A DNA stretch of 39,438 bases from Candidatus Brevefilum sp. (lineage in GTDB: Bacteria > Chloroflexota > Anaerolineae > Anaerolineales > Anaerolineaceae), in contig JARGGB010000026.1 of NCBI GenBank assembly GCA_029210815.1, positions 1 to 39,438 of the forward strand. Reading direction: 5' to 3'. The notes below the pieces were generated by a model, which was not told where the DNA came from, did no database searches, and saw only the letters and a program-made list of their open reading frames with translations. The position numbers and the translations under genes are program-made. Shown here in pieces: positions 143-5,706 of the stretch (the first letter of the stretch is position 1; each line of letters starts with the position of its first letter).

Positions 143-1297
143 TTATTGCTTCCAGATTTCTTCCCAGGTGTCCGTCAGCATATTTCCCATCACCTGATCG
201 TAAAGCCCCTGGGCGGGCAGGACATCGCCATCGGGCTCGATGTAGAGCCAGGCTTTTCCTGCGCCTTCCGGTGATTCATCATACCCCTCGCCTTCCAATT
301 CCAGAGTGACGGGATTGTTTCGTGAATAAGGCACGGGGATATCCCACACCAGGTCAAGTCCGTGCATGGCAGCCAAATCACGTAGATCCTGCAGCTTCTC
401 TTCGAGGTCCTCATTAGGTGTGCTCAGCGAGAGGGCATTGGCGCCCATCCTTGCCAATCGGTCAATGTGGGGTTGAAGGAAGTCTTTTCCAGTGTATGTC
501 AGGTGCACCGTGGTGAAAATGTCTTCCGGCAGTACTTTATCGAGAACCTGCCATTGAGCTTCGTTTTCAGGATCGAGGATGATCATCAGGTGATCAAGCC
601 CTTTAAGGAGAAGGTCATTACGAAAATTGTCTTCCCCAAGTTTGAGCCCATCGGTGAGAAGTCCGGTGACAAGCCCTAATTCTTCAGCTTGTTCAATAAG
701 TTTGGGCAAATCATCACGCAGGGTGGGTTCGCCGCCAGTGAAAACAACGTGGGGAATACCTACATTGTGAGCTTTGTGCAGGATAGTCACCCATTCTTCC
801 GTTGAAAGCTCTCGATCGACACGATCTGTGGGGGCATCTTCCTGCAAACTGCCCTGTCCCACACGATAAGTGAGGGCACAGTCCAACCGATAGGGTGCAG
901 AAATATGACCGCTGTAAGGTTCCTGTCGTTCGATATCCAGGTAAGTTACCGGATCTAAATCTGGCGTGTTGATAAGCGTCTGGATTTTTTCCTTAAAGGA
1001 ATCAAAATCCTGGTAGGCGGTGACATTGCTGACCTGGTAGCGATCTGAAATTTCCTTGATAACCTGACTGGGATCGGATTCTTTTACCAGGTGATAGGCG
1101 AATTCAGCTGCCGTCTGGTTCAGATGCAGCACTGTTGACGCATTGATTACCAATAAGCCCCTGCCATCCAGTTCGATGCGTAAGTGCAGTCGATACTGCT
1201 GGTCAGCATCTGGTGGCGATTGATAGCTGTAAATACCTGCGGATAAGGGTTCTTTTTTTGAAAATAATTCTTTAATCTTCTGAATTATGTTTGGCAT
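143..1297 (-). CDS. Cluster-less radical SAM paralogue (probable pseudoenzyme with PqqD-like N-terminal domain)
   Basis: This 384-residue protein is collinear with its upstream neighbour. Residues about 35-112 form a PqqD-like domain (RRE fold, ending in DFDSFKEKIQTLI), followed by the start of a radical SAM barrel (APYRLDCALTYR) and the motif VVFTGGEPTL at about 184-193, which is the SAM-contacting GGEP element. The three cysteines that should hold the 4Fe-4S cluster are gone: where the neighbour has CNNNCSHC, this protein has VGQGSLQE. The SPASM region is also cysteine-free and truncated (WLYIEPDGDVLPAQ against MCVEPNGDVIPCQ), ending at EEIWKQ. Only Cys140 remains. The frame is intact and the fold motifs are kept, so this is a maintained non-catalytic homologue rather than a decayed gene. 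A scaffold, substrate-binding or regulatory partner of the active enzyme is the simplest reading. It lies 21 bases from the active gene in the same operon. Confidence 0.85.
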   Translation of the reverse strand: MPNIIQKIKELFSKKEPLSAGIYSYQSPPDADQQYRLHLRIELDGRGLLVINASTVLHLNQTAAEFAYHLVKESDPSQVIKEISDRYQVSNVTAYQDFDSFKEKIQTLINTPDLDPVTYLDIERQEPYSGHISAPYRLDCALTYRVGQGSLQEDAPTDRVDRELSTEEWVTILHKAHNVGIPHVVFTGGEPTLRDDLPKLIEQAEELGLVTGLLTDGLKLGEDNFRNDLLLKGLDHLMIILDPENEAQWQVLDKVLPEDIFTTVHLTYTGKDFLQPHIDRLARMGANALSLSTPNEDLEEKLQDLRDLAAMHGLDLVWDIPVPYSRNNPVTLELEGEGYDESPEGAGKAWLYIEPDGDVLPAQGLYDQVMGNMLTDTWEEIWKQ

Positions 1298-1318: not shown

Positions 1319-2692
1319 TCAATTAAAAATATCTTTTCTGATGGGATAAATGACCTGGTGCTCCCTTGCTAAAGGACAGCCCCCGCCGCATTCAATTAAG
1401 TAATCACAGGCTCTGCATCCTTCTGGAACATCTGAGCGATTTCGCAGAGATAATGCCAGCGGATGGTCCCAAATCTCATTCCAGGGTTTCTCCAACAAGT
1501 TCCCTAGCGATTGGTAATAGGATTGGCATGGGATGACGTCGCCATTGGGCTCCACACACATGTTGTAAAGGGCAGCGGTACAGCCTTTAACACCCAATTC
1601 GAGCTGGAGTGGGTTGAAATGACAATATTGCGTCGGGGTGTACCAGATCAGGCGCTGCCCATTCGCCTGGGTTATTGCCCTTGCGTCTTCAAGCAGGGGC
1701 GGCAGTGCTTCTTCATGCAATCCTGTACCCACATCCTTACCTTTGCCGGCGTAGATCAGGGCATTTAATCCAACTGTTGGTACGCCAATCTCAGCTAAAA
1801 ATGCCAGGGTTTCTCGAATTGAGTCCTTATTATGGGTGAGGAGGGTTGTGTTGGTCATCACATACAGCTTAGATGCCAGGACGTTCTTAAGCCCTGTTAC
1901 GGTTTCTCCCCAGGCATCCTTTGCAGCGACCATCGTATTATGAATACCTGCATCATGGGATTCGAGTGTGATCTGAACATGGTCCAGACCGGCATTCACC
2001 AACGCATCAACAAAATCCTTATCCGCCAGCTTGCGCCCGTTGGTGTTAAGCCCGGTGATCAGACCTTTTCCTTCGGCATAAGCAACGAGTTCTACCAGGT
2101 CCTTGTAAAGGGTGGGCTCGCCCCCGGTGAAGACAACATGCGGGATGCGCAAATCCCATACTTTGTCGATCACTTTTTTCCACTGTTCTACCGGCATTTC
2201 TGGATAATTACGCGGCCGTGCATTGTAGCAGTGACTGCAATTGTTGTTACAGCGATAGGTGATCGCCAGGTCCATGCGGTAGGGTGCACTGGGTTTGGCG
2301 CTGAAGGGTGCTGTTGTCTCAAGTTGTAAATCACAAACGGGACAGCCACCGATAGGGTCAAGGATTTCCTCCATTTGAAGGCTGAAATCCATGTAATCCT
2401 GCTGCGCCTGGGCAGCAGTTACACGAAATTGCTTTTGTAAAGCTTTCCCGATTTGAAGGGGATCATTGCCTTCAAGGTGCAGGTAAGCCATAAAGGCTGC
2501 GGATGGGTTGAGGTGCACCACGCGATTGGCGTTGATGATCAGCAATCCACTGCCGTCGGGATCAATCCGTAAATGAATACGAGTTTTACCGTCCTGTTCC
2601 TCACGAGGGTAATGATAAAGCCCGGATTGGGGCAGGTTTGTACCTCTGAATAAGTTTTTTATATTACTGATAAAAGTGTCTGAATTTATCAT
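1319..2692 (-). CDS. Radical SAM/SPASM protein with PqqD-like N-terminal domain (putative peptide maturase)
   Basis: This is a 457-residue radical SAM enzyme. Residues about 37-115 resemble PqqD (HLNPSAAFMAYLHLEGNDPLQIGKALQKQF), the leader-binding RRE module of many RiPP maturases. CxxC at 117-120 follows. The radical SAM signature is C148-x3-C152-x2-C155 (YRCNNNCSHCYN), with the GGEP motif at 190-193. The C-terminus carries a SPASM-like set of cysteines: C371, C379, C389, then CRACDYLIECGGGC (C426, C429, C435, C439), expected to ligate one or two auxiliary 4Fe-4S clusters. Family knowledge: PqqD-rSAM-SPASM proteins install thioether, C-C or epimer modifications on peptides. It sits between a membrane protein with a Cys-Ala tail and a cysteine-free paralogue. 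The start has GAGG about 10 bases upstream. The enzyme class is clear; the reaction and substrate are inference. Confidence 0.92.
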   Translation of the reverse strand: MINSDTFISNIKNLFRGTNLPQSGLYHYPREEQDGKTRIHLRIDPDGSGLLIINANRVVHLNPSAAFMAYLHLEGNDPLQIGKALQKQFRVTAAQAQQDYMDFSLQMEEILDPIGGCPVCDLQLETTAPFSAKPSAPYRMDLAITYRCNNNCSHCYNARPRNYPEMPVEQWKKVIDKVWDLRIPHVVFTGGEPTLYKDLVELVAYAEGKGLITGLNTNGRKLADKDFVDALVNAGLDHVQITLESHDAGIHNTMVAAKDAWGETVTGLKNVLASKLYVMTNTTLLTHNKDSIRETLAFLAEIGVPTVGLNALIYAGKGKDVGTGLHEEALPPLLEDARAITQANGQRLIWYTPTQYCHFNPLQLELGVKGCTAALYNMCVEPNGDVIPCQSYYQSLGNLLEKPWNEIWDHPLALSLRNRSDVPEGCRACDYLIECGGGCPLAREHQVIYPIRKDIFN

Positions 2693-2751: not shown

Positions 2752-4524
2752 TTAACGGCCGCCGCCAGCACAGGCGCAAGCACAACCGGCACAGGCGCAA
2801 GCACAGGCACAGGAACTTCCGCCGCCCCCGCCACCACCACGGAAGCCGCCAGAGCCGCTTTTTGTGCTGGTGGATACGGGGATCGGATTGGTTCGGCTGG
2901 TGATACGGTCTGTGAAGGATGTCAGGTTGCCGACCACACCGGCTGCCATGCCCGTTGCCCCGTTGATCACGTTGGCAGCGAAGGTCGAGCCAGGGATGCT
3001 CGGCAAGGAAATTCCCCCACCACCGCTGCCTGGTTTACCGGTCGATACTGCAGGTCTGCTGGCAGTTGTTGGCACACCACCGCCGATCGAGCGGCGATAA
3101 CTGGGGGAATAACGCGGCCACCAAATGGGAACGTAGACAGGTCCACCGGTGAAGGTGCGGCGTGTCCGCTCCTGGTAATCGTCATCCAGCATGGTCCACT
3201 CGAGGGTCTGGTTGTAATTCTCGCTTTTAACCTCTGGTGTTCCCGCTTCTTCAACCATCGTCCAGGCTCGCCGCATAATATCTTCGTAATAGGCTATTGT
3301 TTCTTTGCGTGAAAAGCCCTTCATTTTTCCTGTAACGCTGGTAACGAGTGAGACCATCGTGTTTTGAATGGCTGTCCGCCGTAATTTGTCAGGTTGTTTG
3401 AAGGCATCCAAAAACTGCTTTTCATAGAGATGCAGGTCCTCAGGTAAGGGATCTGAAACTTCCAGATCGAGGGGATCTTCCTGGGTGACGATGGCTGCTT
3501 CCTTTTTGAGGACGCCAAAGAGAATCATGGTCAAAACTTTATCCATGGGCTGTTCCATCAGGATTGCCGCTTCAACTGCTGTCAAACCGCGCTTGATACC
3601 ATTGCCCTCAATTTTCATCTTAGGTGGGAGGTAGCTCATTTTACGCTTCTGTGCACCAACAGTACCCTGGTAGATGCTGAACCCGAAAATGGCGATGAAG
3701 AACAAACCAGAGCCAAAGCAGCAAAAATTTTGACCAAGGATTCCTAAAATAGCCGGTATAAAACCGGTAACACTCCCTGATGGCTCAGAAGGAGAGGAAG
3801 GCTCGGGTTTAGTTACGATCGAATCCTCTGGCACATATTGGCTGGGGAAGGCACCCCCAAAAATATACTGTGTATGGGCGTCAGCATTGTCAGTAAACCA
3901 TGAATAGTAGACACGGTCTCCTTCAGCGGTGAATCCAATGTCATCTGGTTCATCGGGACCAGGCCAATTTTCGGGGTAATAGTAAACGCCCTCTTCATTC
4001 CCGACGCCGGGCGGCAGGATGATCGTCACCCGGTATTCGGTATTCGTACTTTTATCGAATTCCGGTCCGAACCAGTTCGGGCTGAATTGAAAGCTGACAT
4101 AATTTTCCCGGTCTGCGCCGTCATAAAGCCTGAGCACATTTTGTACGCCTGGGATCCAGGCAGTGACTGTCCCAAATTGTCCAGGCTGTATGGCATTTTC
4201 ACCCAAGCCTAAAGCAAATCCATTGGTTGCATAGGGCGATTTTTCAATATCATTAATAGGTTGCCCGTTAACTTCTGCTTCAATGTTGTTCAGGTTATAG
4301 GCTGAAGTGGGCATACCGATATCAACATAATCGATGGGTGCTGCACCTGTCCTGTTTTGAAATTCAATGTAATACCAGATGGAAAGCGTCCCATCTTCCT
4401 CAATATAGACTTCGACTTCAGATGCAGGGACTTCAAAACGCAAGTCCTGTGCTATTACTGCAGCAGGCAGCGTAAACAGACCGATAATAAACAGGCTTAG
4501 AAGAAAAAGTCTAAATTTTTTCAT
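2752..4524 (-). CDS. DUF2207-like membrane protein with C-terminal Cys-Ala repeat tail
   Basis: The 590-residue product has a signal peptide (residues 1-25, cleavage likely after AVIA) and an extracytoplasmic beta-rich DUF2207-type domain (about 27-235). A Ser/Pro linker, one transmembrane segment (about 254-286) and a cytoplasmic region follow. This region contains a winged-helix-like stretch, GLTAVEAAILMEQPMDKVLTM. From about 480 the chain becomes Gly/Ser-rich. It ends with a poly-Gly run and, from residue 572, CACACACAGCACACAGGGR: seven cysteines spaced CxC around one Gly. Codons within the tail vary (TGT and TGC; GCC and GCT), so it is not a simple DNA microsatellite. The predicted topology puts the tail in the cytoplasm, within reach of the radical SAM enzyme encoded next. 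The start is coupled to the previous gene (GGTGA overlaps its stop, gap 3 bases). DUF2207 proteins have no established function; the tail being a modification or metal-binding target is inference. Confidence 0.88.
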   Translation of the reverse strand: MKKFRLFLLSLFIIGLFTLPAAVIAQDLRFEVPASEVEVYIEEDGTLSIWYYIEFQNRTGAAPIDYVDIGMPTSAYNLNNIEAEVNGQPINDIEKSPYATNGFALGLGENAIQPGQFGTVTAWIPGVQNVLRLYDGADRENYVSFQFSPNWFGPEFDKSTNTEYRVTIILPPGVGNEEGVYYYPENWPGPDEPDDIGFTAEGDRVYYSWFTDNADAHTQYIFGGAFPSQYVPEDSIVTKPEPSSPSEPSGSVTGFIPAILGILGQNFCCFGSGLFFIAIFGFSIYQGTVGAQKRKMSYLPPKMKIEGNGIKRGLTAVEAAILMEQPMDKVLTMILFGVLKKEAAIVTQEDPLDLEVSDPLPEDLHLYEKQFLDAFKQPDKLRRTAIQNTMVSLVTSVTGKMKGFSRKETIAYYEDIMRRAWTMVEEAGTPEVKSENYNQTLEWTMLDDDYQERTRRTFTGGPVYVPIWWPRYSPSYRRSIGGGVPTTASRPAVSTGKPGSGGGGISLPSIPGSTFAANVINGATGMAAGVVGNLTSFTDRITSRTNPIPVSTSTKSGSGGFRGGGGGGGSSCACACACAGCACACAGGGR

Positions 4525-4527
4525 AAC

Positions 4528-4896
4528 TCACCACTTTGGCTCTTCGGTTAATTGATAGGTTGTGCCGCAATTGGGGCACTCAACAACAGGCGCACCGGCA
4601 ACCATTTTAACATCTTCTGAAGAAAGTGGCGCGCCGCAAGATTGGCATTTGATGGTGTCCATCCCCACCTCTCCAGGAAGGTCGATATTCAGGTTAACCA
4701 CCTGGTCGCCAGCTTTGACGGGTGGACTGAGCTTTGTCCCAACAAAAATCAGAACAAAGCCAATCACCAACCCGATAATGCCCACAATGATCCAGCTTGG
4801 GGATCCTTCAGAGCTGAATGCGCCCAATATGAACAGAAAAGCAAGTATGATAAAAATCGCAGCAGTAATAAAGGCAATGATTCTTCCTGCACGCAT
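4528..4896 (-). CDS. Small two-TM membrane protein with C-terminal zinc ribbon
   Basis: The chosen start (ATG at 4896) has an excellent GGAGG five bases upstream; an ATG at 4929 lies in frame but has no ribosome-binding site. The 122-residue product has two transmembrane helices (IIAFITAAIFIILAFLFILGA and WIIVGIIGLVIGFVLIFVG). A soluble tail follows with a zinc ribbon, CQSCGAPLSS then VECPNCGTTY (two CxxC pairs), as found in many DUF2207-associated and zinc-ribbon membrane proteins. It is the first gene of the minus-strand operon and is 3 bases from the Cys-tail protein gene, which suggests the two act as a pair at the membrane. Its function is unknown. Confidence 0.8.
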   Translation of the reverse strand: MRAGRIIAFITAAIFIILAFLFILGAFSSEGSPSWIIVGIIGLVIGFVLIFVGTKLSPPVKAGDQVVNLNIDLPGEVGMDTIKCQSCGAPLSSEDVKMVAGAPVVECPNCGTTYQLTEEPKW

Positions 4897-5079
4897 AGGT
4901 CCTCCAGTATATCTATTGTCTGATGTCATGATAATTTTAGCTTAACTTTACCAAAGGAACCTTAGATTTTATCAGTCTTTTCCATTTTCCGAAGCAGGCA
5001 TTGCAGGCTTGACGTATAATAATTAAGGATCGCTTAAAATGCAAAGTAAAACAACTACTATTATACAGGATACCGCTCA

Positions 5080-5706
5080 ATGACAAAAGAAGTCGTTCCG
5101 GACATCGTGATTGCCCGTTTACCACGATATTTACAATGTCTCAATTTAATGGCAAAGGAAGGATTGCACACCGTTTCCTCCGGGGTTCTGGCAGAACGAC
5201 TTGGGACAACCGCTGCCCAAATTCGAAAAGACCTTTCTTATTTCGGCGGCTTTGGCAAGCAGGGATCGGGTTATCCCATTTACAGTCTGATTGAAGCATT
5301 ACAAGAAATATTGAACCTGGATCGTATCTGGCAGGTGGCTGTGGTAGGCGCAGGGGACCTGGGACGTGCCCTGACGCGTTACCAGGGTTTTCCAAGGAGA
5401 GGGATTGAGATCAAACTCTTGTTTGATGTTGATCCAAAACTCGTTGGCACTAAAGTGGGATCTATCACCATTCAGCATGTTGATTATTTAGAAAAAGAAA
5501 TTCAGCATCATGGCATAAAAATAGGCGTTCTTGCGGTGCCTGCCGAATATGCCCAGCTAATGGCTGACCGAATGGTTGAGGCTGGGATCGAGGGAATTTT
5601 GAGTTATGCACCTGTTTCGTTAATATTGCCCGAATCGGTACATGCACAGCATATCGATCCTGTATTGCAGTTACAGACGATGATGTATTATTTGGGTGAA
5701 GATTAA
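5080..5706 (+). CDS. rex: Redox-sensing transcriptional repressor Rex
   Basis: The 208-residue protein matches Rex along its length. It has an N-terminal winged helix (residues about 5-75) with the recognition element TAAQIRKDLSYFGGFGKQG. A Rossmann NAD(H)-binding domain carries VVGAGDLGRAL at 88-98 and the acidic end of beta-2 in LLFDVDP, and a C-terminal domain-swapped helix ends in QLQTMMYYLGE. Rex dimers bind operators near fermentation and respiration genes and release DNA when NADH rises. It is transcribed divergently from the radical SAM operon across a 183-base gap. No clear Shine-Dalgarno precedes the ATG, and TATTAT/TTATAC sequences lie only about 15-20 bases upstream, so the leader may be very short. 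No canonical Rex operator was spotted in the gap. Confidence 0.95.
   Translation: MTKEVVPDIVIARLPRYLQCLNLMAKEGLHTVSSGVLAERLGTTAAQIRKDLSYFGGFGKQGSGYPIYSLIEALQEILNLDRIWQVAVVGAGDLGRALTRYQGFPRRGIEIKLLFDVDPKLVGTKVGSITIQHVDYLEKEIQHHGIKIGVLAVPAEYAQLMADRMVEAGIEGILSYAPVSLILPESVHAQHIDPVLQLQTMMYYLGED

Follow-up and report, generated by a model that had tools for sequence, protein, structure and literature searches.

The stretch of DNA analyzed here, hereafter the window, comprises 39,438 nucleotides from the bacterium Candidatus Brevefilum sp. (contig JARGGB010000026.1; phylum Chloroflexota, order Anaerolineales) and carries four closely spaced genes on its minus strand, as judged from the list of open reading frames (ORFs) and from profile matches (Table 1). 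In the direction of reading these encode a small membrane protein with a zinc-ribbon-like motif, a 590-residue membrane protein, a radical S-adenosylmethionine enzyme (rSAM) with PqqD and SPASM domains, and a paralogue of this enzyme that lacks the cluster cysteines (pseudo-rSAM). The membrane protein ends, behind a Ser/Gly spacer, in the 19 residues CACACACAGCACACAGGGR, which include seven Cys and are followed directly by the stop codon. A preliminary description of this locus had drawn attention to the Cys/Ala tail, to selection on it at the protein level, and to the adjoining enzyme and paralogue, and each of these points is borne out. We present here the evidence that this tail is a candidate substrate of the neighboring rSAM.

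Homologues of the membrane protein were collected with a query from which the tail had been removed (residues 1-540), and the protein was found in 17 of 251 genomes of the phylum and in 117 of 151 genomes of the order. The tail is present in all 112 complete homologues obtained with this query and is letter for letter identical in 88; all 112 terminate in a Gly-rich stretch followed by Arg. This set was drawn from 119 fetched regions, with the G266 region left out, and excludes 17 of 130 ORFs (partial, frame-broken or tailless paralogues) as well as L148, whose contig ends within the tail. Across 98 members of the order the Cys-Ala stretch is the best-conserved part of the protein (0.97; the cytosolic domain reaches 0.68 and the preceding linker 0.43). 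These 98 proteins were picked for their GGGR ends, so the value of 1.00 for GGGR holds by construction and the free count is the 112 of 112 given above.

A simple repeat behind a poly-Gly stretch might be attributed to low complexity of the DNA, such as a CA-rich microsatellite or in-frame codon slippage. The tail codons of the window are mixed (TGT/TGC and GCC/GCT), and the same is seen on a larger scale among the matches listed from both homologue sets, where the exact 19-mer ends 122 of 173 unique ORFs that passed a loose tail filter, one that admits at least one ORF without a real tail. These 122 identical peptides are encoded by 122 distinct DNA versions, which together draw on every synonymous codon for Cys (two), Ala (four), Gly (four) and Arg (six). 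Three consecutive CA units occur in 0 of 1929 other ORFs selected from the loci, apart from a piece of this very gene that Ns divide in L028, and the tail is conserved across bacteria and archaea. The codon variety led us to reject the microsatellite and reading-frame explanations, to which we give practically no chance. On this evidence from the coding sequences, the tail is no product of chance or of DNA repeats, and selection is at the level of the protein.

Comparison of tails from different lineages provides insight into the unit of the repeat. The number of Cys per tail is 5 to 9 outside the Clostridia, mostly 7, and 4 to 9 in the Clostridia. Ala directly follows the tail Cys in 1146 of 1153 and in 214 of 220 cases, and the preceding residue is mostly Ala, Gly or Ser. 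The Gly interruption of the units is variable in position or absent, with six uninterrupted units in Methanomassiliicoccales and Heimdallarchaeota, and single units may be separated by Ser-Ser in Lachnospiraceae. Because this spacing varies, yet Ala follows Cys nearly always, the repeat unit as judged from the compared tails is Cys-Ala. The GGGR motif is terminal in the order and internal in the clostridial tails, which extend past it.

The association of tail and enzyme was evaluated in several genome sets. The first homologue scan, referred to here as the wider scan, had CACACACA among its patterns, and its tail counts are biased towards tails; the search was therefore repeated with the tail-free query and, in another phylum, with the rSAM as starting point. 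Of the 151 genomes sampled from the order, 117 encode both the membrane protein and the rSAM, one has the rSAM alone (G375, at a contig end) and 33 have neither, so that every genome with the membrane protein (117 of 117) also holds the enzyme. These genome counts led us to reject a chance neighborhood of the two genes. In the wider scan, for which all counts refer to the matches listed, the rSAM was found in 63 of 74 loci, always at most 2.3 kb from the tail gene and in 52 loci within 1 kb. The taxa include Chloroflexota, Zixibacteria, Acidobacteria, Aminicenantes, Armatimonadota, Planctomycetota, Methanomassiliicoccales, Heimdall- and Sigynarchaeota, Lachnospiraceae and others. Among the carriers is the cultured Ornatilinea apprima P3M-1 (L004).

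Of the remaining 11 loci, two have an rSAM cut at a contig end; the genomes of the other nine were searched, and seven hold the enzyme elsewhere at E <= 1e-116. One example of such an unlinked pair is the Sigynarchaeota genome of L053, which holds an rSAM of 46% identity (E 2.4e-124). The search from the enzyme side, with a Lachnospiraceae rSAM as query at E 1e-60, matched 5 of 245 genomes at the level of the class and 22 of 250 at that of the family, with 26 loci in total. A Cys-Ala tail gene is adjacent in 24 of these, and in the other two the neighbors are cut by contig ends. The preliminary description had named tail-bearing homologues that regularly lack an rSAM neighbor as the pattern that would speak against its proposal, and no such pattern was seen.

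The rSAM of the window combines a PqqD domain (PF05402, 26.0 bits, cut-off 23.4) with a Radical_SAM match of 95.9 bits and a SPASM domain (PF13186, 37.6 bits). The cluster motif CX3CX2C is present in 75 of 75 aligned rSAMs, a count that holds by construction since rows were split into rSAM and pseudo-rSAM by its presence, and the SPASM residues Cys371, Cys389 and Cys439 are kept in all 75. The nearest solved structures by sequence include PqqE, SkfB and 5v1q, the last of which we take to be CteB. The enzyme thus carries the features of an rSAM-SPASM maturase of the type that acts on ribosomally synthesized and post-translationally modified peptides (RiPPs), namely the CX3CX2C motif, the SPASM cysteines and a PqqD/RiPP recognition element (RRE) domain; no PqqD match was found in the clostridial member L066. 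A short, cleaved and exported precursor with a leader was not found, the Cys-rich stretch being the C-terminus of a 590-residue membrane protein, and no short precursor, exporter or leader peptidase is among the four gene families found in more than 100 loci. By domain content, the system would be classed as rSAM-SPASM substrate modification with the enzyme features of these pathways and without their peptide precursor.

A quick LG+G4 tree of 123 rows, which gave warnings on long branches and letter make-up, separates the rSAMs of Cys-Ala tails and their pseudo paralogues from six unrelated rSAMs and from a further pair associated with Ala-Cys-His-Ser tails. One true rSAM, L051, is mislabeled as pseudo in this tree and was excluded from the counts. 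The tree assigns the rSAM of family f77 to the Armatimonadota-type branch, not the one expected, and its pseudo partner to the Anaerolineales branch; the enzyme therefore seems to have been replaced while the partner and the tail stayed. A separate observation concerns L225:1759-2853, where a clostridial rSAM with an internal stop, perhaps a decaying copy, adjoins the gene for a related membrane protein whose end is lost at the contig boundary.

The pseudo-rSAM of the window retains PqqD (25.6 bits) and Radical_SAM (35.2 bits) matches, with SPASM below its cut-off (17.2 versus 21.5), and contains a single Cys in 384 residues. None of 18 aligned Anaerolineales pseudo-rSAMs keeps any of the SPASM cysteines counted; 17 of them retain Arg38 and all 18 retain His40, two conserved residues of the PqqD region. 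A second pseudo-rSAM clade (13 rows, from Armatimonadota-type loci) is without the CX3CX2C stretch and keeps Cys426 to Cys439 in 11 to 12 of 13, and an auxiliary cluster may for this reason remain in the dead enzyme. Members of this second clade sit between the rSAM and the membrane protein in L042, L048, L049, L062 and similar loci.

In relatives such as L001, the gene after the pseudo-rSAM encodes a class I methyltransferase (Methyltransf_11, 58.8 bits). The contig begins at the first base of the window, and genes past the pseudo-rSAM would be cut off; none was found in the genome of the window at E 1e-18, as expected from this contig break. Of the 151 genomes of the order, 114 encode the methyltransferase. 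It accompanies the rSAM in 113 of the 118 rSAM genomes, and the five without it are G000 (at a contig end), G254, G259, G266 and G358. In G160, a close relative, it is encoded at C5:639962-640702. In G273, it occurs at C11:580805-581545 where membrane protein and rSAM do not. Outside the Clostridia, 43 of 66 loci of the wider scan contain the methyltransferase as well, among them archaeal ones, and it lies beside the rSAM in the Sigynarchaeota genome.

In an AlphaFold2 model, the membrane protein starts with a signal or transmembrane (TM) helix and an extracytoplasmic beta domain; a single TM helix then leads to a helical cytosolic domain, which is followed by a linker and the disordered tail. 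Net charge is greater after the internal TM helix than before it in 147 of 158 cases, and the tail is therefore predicted to face the cytosol, in the same compartment as the enzymes. This predicted topology fits the earlier suggestion that the substrate is a resident membrane protein rather than a secreted peptide. Ahead of the Ser/Gly linker lies a conserved segment flanked by poorly conserved linkers (0.30 and 0.43), in which P511, G512, F515, A516, F537, T538, T542, T545, N546, P547 and P549 are each at least 95% conserved in the 98 profiled proteins. This segment is a candidate recognition element for the PqqD/RRE domain and could act as an internal leader.

Table 1. Features of the Cys-Ala tail locus in the window (positions counted from its first base)
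Feature	Position	Strand	Basis
Small membrane protein with two TM segments and a CxxC..CxxC ribbon	4528..4929	-	ORF, profile search, TM prediction
Membrane protein with Cys-Ala tail, 590 residues, ATG start	2752..4524	-	ORF, AlphaFold2 (mean predicted local distance difference test, pLDDT, 82.6), TM and charge
Extracytoplasmic beta domain, residues 30-240	3805..4437	-	Fold comparison
Cytosolic domain, residues 306-480, distantly TIGR04222-like	3085..3609	-	Model of residues 300-482; weak TIGR04222 matches of relatives
Segment conserved ahead of the Ser/Gly linker (PG..FAA..FTxxxTxxTNPxP), residues 508-551	2872..3003	-	Conservation profile, 98 proteins
Cys-Ala tail CACACACAGCACACAGGGR, residues 572-590, putative core for the rSAM	2755..2811	-	Translation, conservation
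PqqD-radical SAM-SPASM enzyme, 457 residues, putative tail maturase	1319..2692	-	Pfam matches, SPASM Cys
CX3CX2C motif of the rSAM (CNNNCSHC, residues 148-155)	2228..2251	-	Alignment, translation
Pseudo-rSAM, 384 residues, PqqD domain and part of the barrel recognizable, putative partner subunit	143..1297	-	ORF, Pfam, alignment

The fold of the beta domain resembles that of ribophorin I/Ost1 (6ezn_A, Z 17.0 over 185 residues, 2.8 A) and the N-terminal domains of M1 peptidases (Z about 12), a likeness between model and structures that says nothing of function. The cytosolic domain modeled alone gave a pLDDT of 91.6 and a predicted template-modeling score of 0.86; it had no fold match in the PDB at E <= 0.001, and an absent match is not evidence for a new fold. 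The preliminary description had labeled the protein as DUF2207, and this label did not hold: the window protein matches none of the Pfam and NCBIfam families at E 0.1, and 0 of 45 aligned homologues exceed the gathering cut-off of DUF2207 (PF09972). Weak TIGR04222 matches occur in 7 of the 45 aligned homologues (best E 3.2e-4) and in the related protein L098 (5.9e-5), whose 22.8 bits fall below the curated cut-off of 43; the window protein has no match to this family. The tie to DUF2207 and TIGR04222 is a distant one, visible only through relatives. A tailless protein of 878 residues in G191 (L096:2442-5078) aligns with the query over the N-terminal beta domain alone (query 28-236).

The small ribbon membrane protein is the first gene of the putative operon, and its family is present in 116 of the clustered loci. 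The clostridial tail protein L066 retains the N-terminal region and has a zinc-ribbon-like stretch of its own (Zn_ribbon_3, 26.5 bits, cut-off 27), which hints that the small ribbon protein may be a partner of the membrane protein. Divergent from the operon, at window positions 5080-5706, lies a gene for a Rex-like repressor (CoA_binding with a DNA-binding N-terminus); it was not counted in the system because its family occurs in only 13 loci. A defense system was also considered and rejected, as the PADLOC matches of the rSAM to viperin-like rSAMs (E 3e-16) and of the methyltransferase to the model of a larger protein (6.7e-14) were read as generic.

A related arrangement with a different tail was found in G009 (L098:2646-5794) and G128 (L248:1498-4298). 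Each encodes a related membrane protein with an Ala-Cys-His-Ser repeat tail, 13 Cys in 54 residues, beside its own PqqD-rSAM. L098, a homologue of the window protein, exceeds the PF09972 cut-off (25.5 versus 24.4 bits), and the rSAMs of the two genomes share 55% identity and fall immediately outside the Cys-Ala clade in the quick tree. This looks like a sister system, and among the sampled sequences tail type and rSAM clade change together.

From these observations we propose, with a probability of roughly 0.7, that the membrane protein carries its own peptide-like substrate: the C-terminal Cys-Ala tail would be modified in place, on the cytosolic side, by the adjacent rSAM, with the pseudo-rSAM as partner and the methyltransferase adding a second mark. 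Recognition would proceed through the conserved segment ahead of the linker, and the PqqD domain, together with the pseudo-rSAM where present, would guide the rSAM to the Cys-Ala units. The pseudo-rSAM would be a non-catalytic partner that holds the substrate in those clades that have it, and the class I methyltransferase would add its mark perhaps at the GGGR end. Use of the tail as substrate of the rSAM is in itself quite probable. Thioether formation is well known for PqqD/RRE-bearing SPASM enzymes on Cys-rich substrates, according to the available part of PMC8172795. This known reaction and the presence of one Ala per Cys lead us to favor, tentatively and at somewhat less than even odds, a ladder of Cys-to-Ala thioethers as the product. 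As for its role, we can only guess at a structural, redox or metal-handling element at the inner face of the membrane.

Several observations weigh against this proposal or narrow it. Adjacency and co-occurrence, as read from genomes, would not amount to proof of substrate use. Two of the nine rSAM-less loci of the wider scan belong to genomes with weak rSAM matches only (G382, 8e-41; G385, 1.4e-16), on short tail contigs of 3.7 and 6.5 kb. In f77, the rSAM lies a few kb away on the opposite strand and adjoins a tailless paralogue of the membrane protein, and this paralogue could for that reason be its partner; in G269 and G295 of this family the rSAM is distant in the genome. The SPASM residues Cys426, Cys429 and Cys435 occur in 45 of 75 rSAMs and are missing in 30, and the best 25 matches listed to curated rSAM families all fall far under the cut-offs. 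Loci with a pseudo-rSAM were confined to the Chloroflexota and the Armatimonadota type, and even among the Chloroflexota L032, L137 and L138 show none in the locus. The methyltransferase was found in 0 of 8 clostridial loci among the matches listed from the wider scan, and the best of four weak matches in 26 clostridial genomes is 5e-14, versus 3e-27 to 7e-31 in three other carriers. Since each is lacking in some carriers, methyltransferase and pseudo-rSAM are not needed everywhere. The tailless f77 paralogues of the cytosolic part are proteins of 290-360 residues that end in ..TTFYG or alike (L124:8927-9934, L130:10706-11707, L154:3611-4507, L172:3142-4167).

An unmodified tail could also serve as a cytosolic, metallothionein-like CxCxC strand for metal binding or thiol redox, with rSAM and methyltransferase acting elsewhere, for example on a different protein encoded in the operon or on a small molecule. 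CxC repeats generally bind soft metals, and the first gene of the operon encodes a zinc-ribbon-like membrane protein, which would suit such a role. Residues between metal-binding cysteines usually vary, though, and here Ala follows Cys in 99% of cases and the Gly-rich end with Arg is shared by every complete homologue; Ala after Cys appears more constant than metal binding alone would require. Tail and rSAM were moreover not separable in 151 genomes, and the clostridial and Ala-Cys-His-Ser tails each pair with their own rSAM clade. We consider this explanation unlikely.

A different possibility accepts the tail as substrate and assigns it another product, such as oxidation of Cys (formylglycine or thioaldehyde type), epimerization of Ala or some other change within the unit; the methyltransferase would then cap thiols or the carboxylate at the C-terminus. 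SPASM enzymes can oxidize Cys too, as the available part of PMC8172795 describes for anSME. A reaction within the unit would also be natural because the unit is a dipeptide rather than a spaced pair, although one Ala per Cys suits a thioether equally. The distribution of the methyltransferase bears on capping: it is found in the 113 of 118 rSAM genomes of the order noted above, where GGGR is terminal, and not in the 26 clostridial genomes, where the tail continues past GGGR, which suggests that it may act at the C-terminus of the tail. This contrast concerns a single clade, however, and in G259 (L198), where GGGR is terminal, no methyltransferase was found at E 1e-18, which speaks against C-terminal action unless its copy is too divergent for the query. 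In addition, 23 of the 66 non-clostridial loci among the listed matches of the wider scan are without the methyltransferase, a count for the locus only, with three genomes searched. We regard a product other than a thioether as somewhat doubtful.

Comparison with described systems helps to place our proposal of a tail modified in place. PqqE-, SkfB- and CteB-type maturases of sactipeptides and ranthipeptides share the architecture of the rSAM, and here too a Cys-rich candidate substrate is encoded adjacent to the enzyme; unlike their peptides, it is the tail of a large membrane protein. In the ACGX system, the target of a TIGR04340 rSAM is an ACGX repeat. That system shares the idea of a repeated Ala-Cys core, whereas the main tail described here is Cys-Ala and not ACGX. 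The sister-type rSAM of L098 scores 97 bits (E 9e-28) to TIGR04340, far below the cut-off of 400, and TIGR04340 is not among the best 25 matches listed for the window rSAM. Our literature search found no paper on the ACGX system and none linking DUF2207 with radical SAM enzymes. DUF2207 proteins include SMU.243 of Streptococcus mutans (PMC10457818, available part), and only the sister protein L098, not the window protein, exceeds the cut-off of that family.

The nearest published idea we found is the proposal that Cys-bearing C-terminal tails of TIGR04222 membrane proteins are substrates of multinuclear non-heme iron-dependent oxidative enzymes (MNIOs, DUF692), as set out in the available part of PMC12452194. 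Both cases involve a resident membrane protein, a disordered Ser/Gly/Cys tail and an adjacent modifying enzyme. They differ in the enzyme, an MNIO there and a PqqD-rSAM here; in the tail, which is a nearly fixed 19-mer of Cys-Ala units here, unlike the Cys-containing Ser/Gly tails of TIGR04222 proteins; and in its location, periplasmic there and predicted cytosolic here. A third of TIGR04222 genomes are without MNIO genes according to the same part of that source (PMC12452194), whereas tail and enzyme are inseparable in our sample of the order. No MNIO (PF05114) gene is adjacent in the window, and the sole match in its genome lies on a separate contig (C45, 38.6 bits). The preliminary description had held that no system of this form was described; we likewise found no paper on the tail peptide or the present system, in a search thin on subscription journals and preprints whose negative outcome is weak, and the part of PMC9062424 available to us held nothing on it for the terms asked, but the MNIO/TIGR04222 proposal is a published parallel (PMC12452194).

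Beyond that description, the present analysis adds the methyltransferase, the rule that the unit is Cys-Ala, the sister system with Ala-Cys-His-Ser tails, the form found in Clostridia and the zinc-ribbon neighbor. Taken at its fullest, the picture is of a widespread system of anaerobic bacteria and archaea, Asgard lineages included, that consists of an rSAM, often a methyltransferase and in two clades a dead rSAM, and that cross-links the tail (seven thioethers here) as a protein-borne relative of sactipeptides with a second, Ala-Cys-His-Ser version; in this complete form it is one possibility, and more probably wrong in some part than right in all. A nearly fixed 19-residue tail that occurs in bacteria and archaea, is the best-conserved part of its protein family and cannot be separated from an rSAM in the order sampled here strongly suggests that anaerobes carry out a modification not yet described, with a defined set of parts in the membrane protein, the rSAM, the pseudo-rSAM and the methyltransferase. 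If the proposal is true, rSAM peptide chemistry would reach resident membrane proteins, beyond secreted or free peptides. Together with the MNIO/TIGR04222 proposal, as far as the available part of that source goes (PMC12452194), this would point to a broader class of membrane scaffolds whose Cys-repeat tails are modified.

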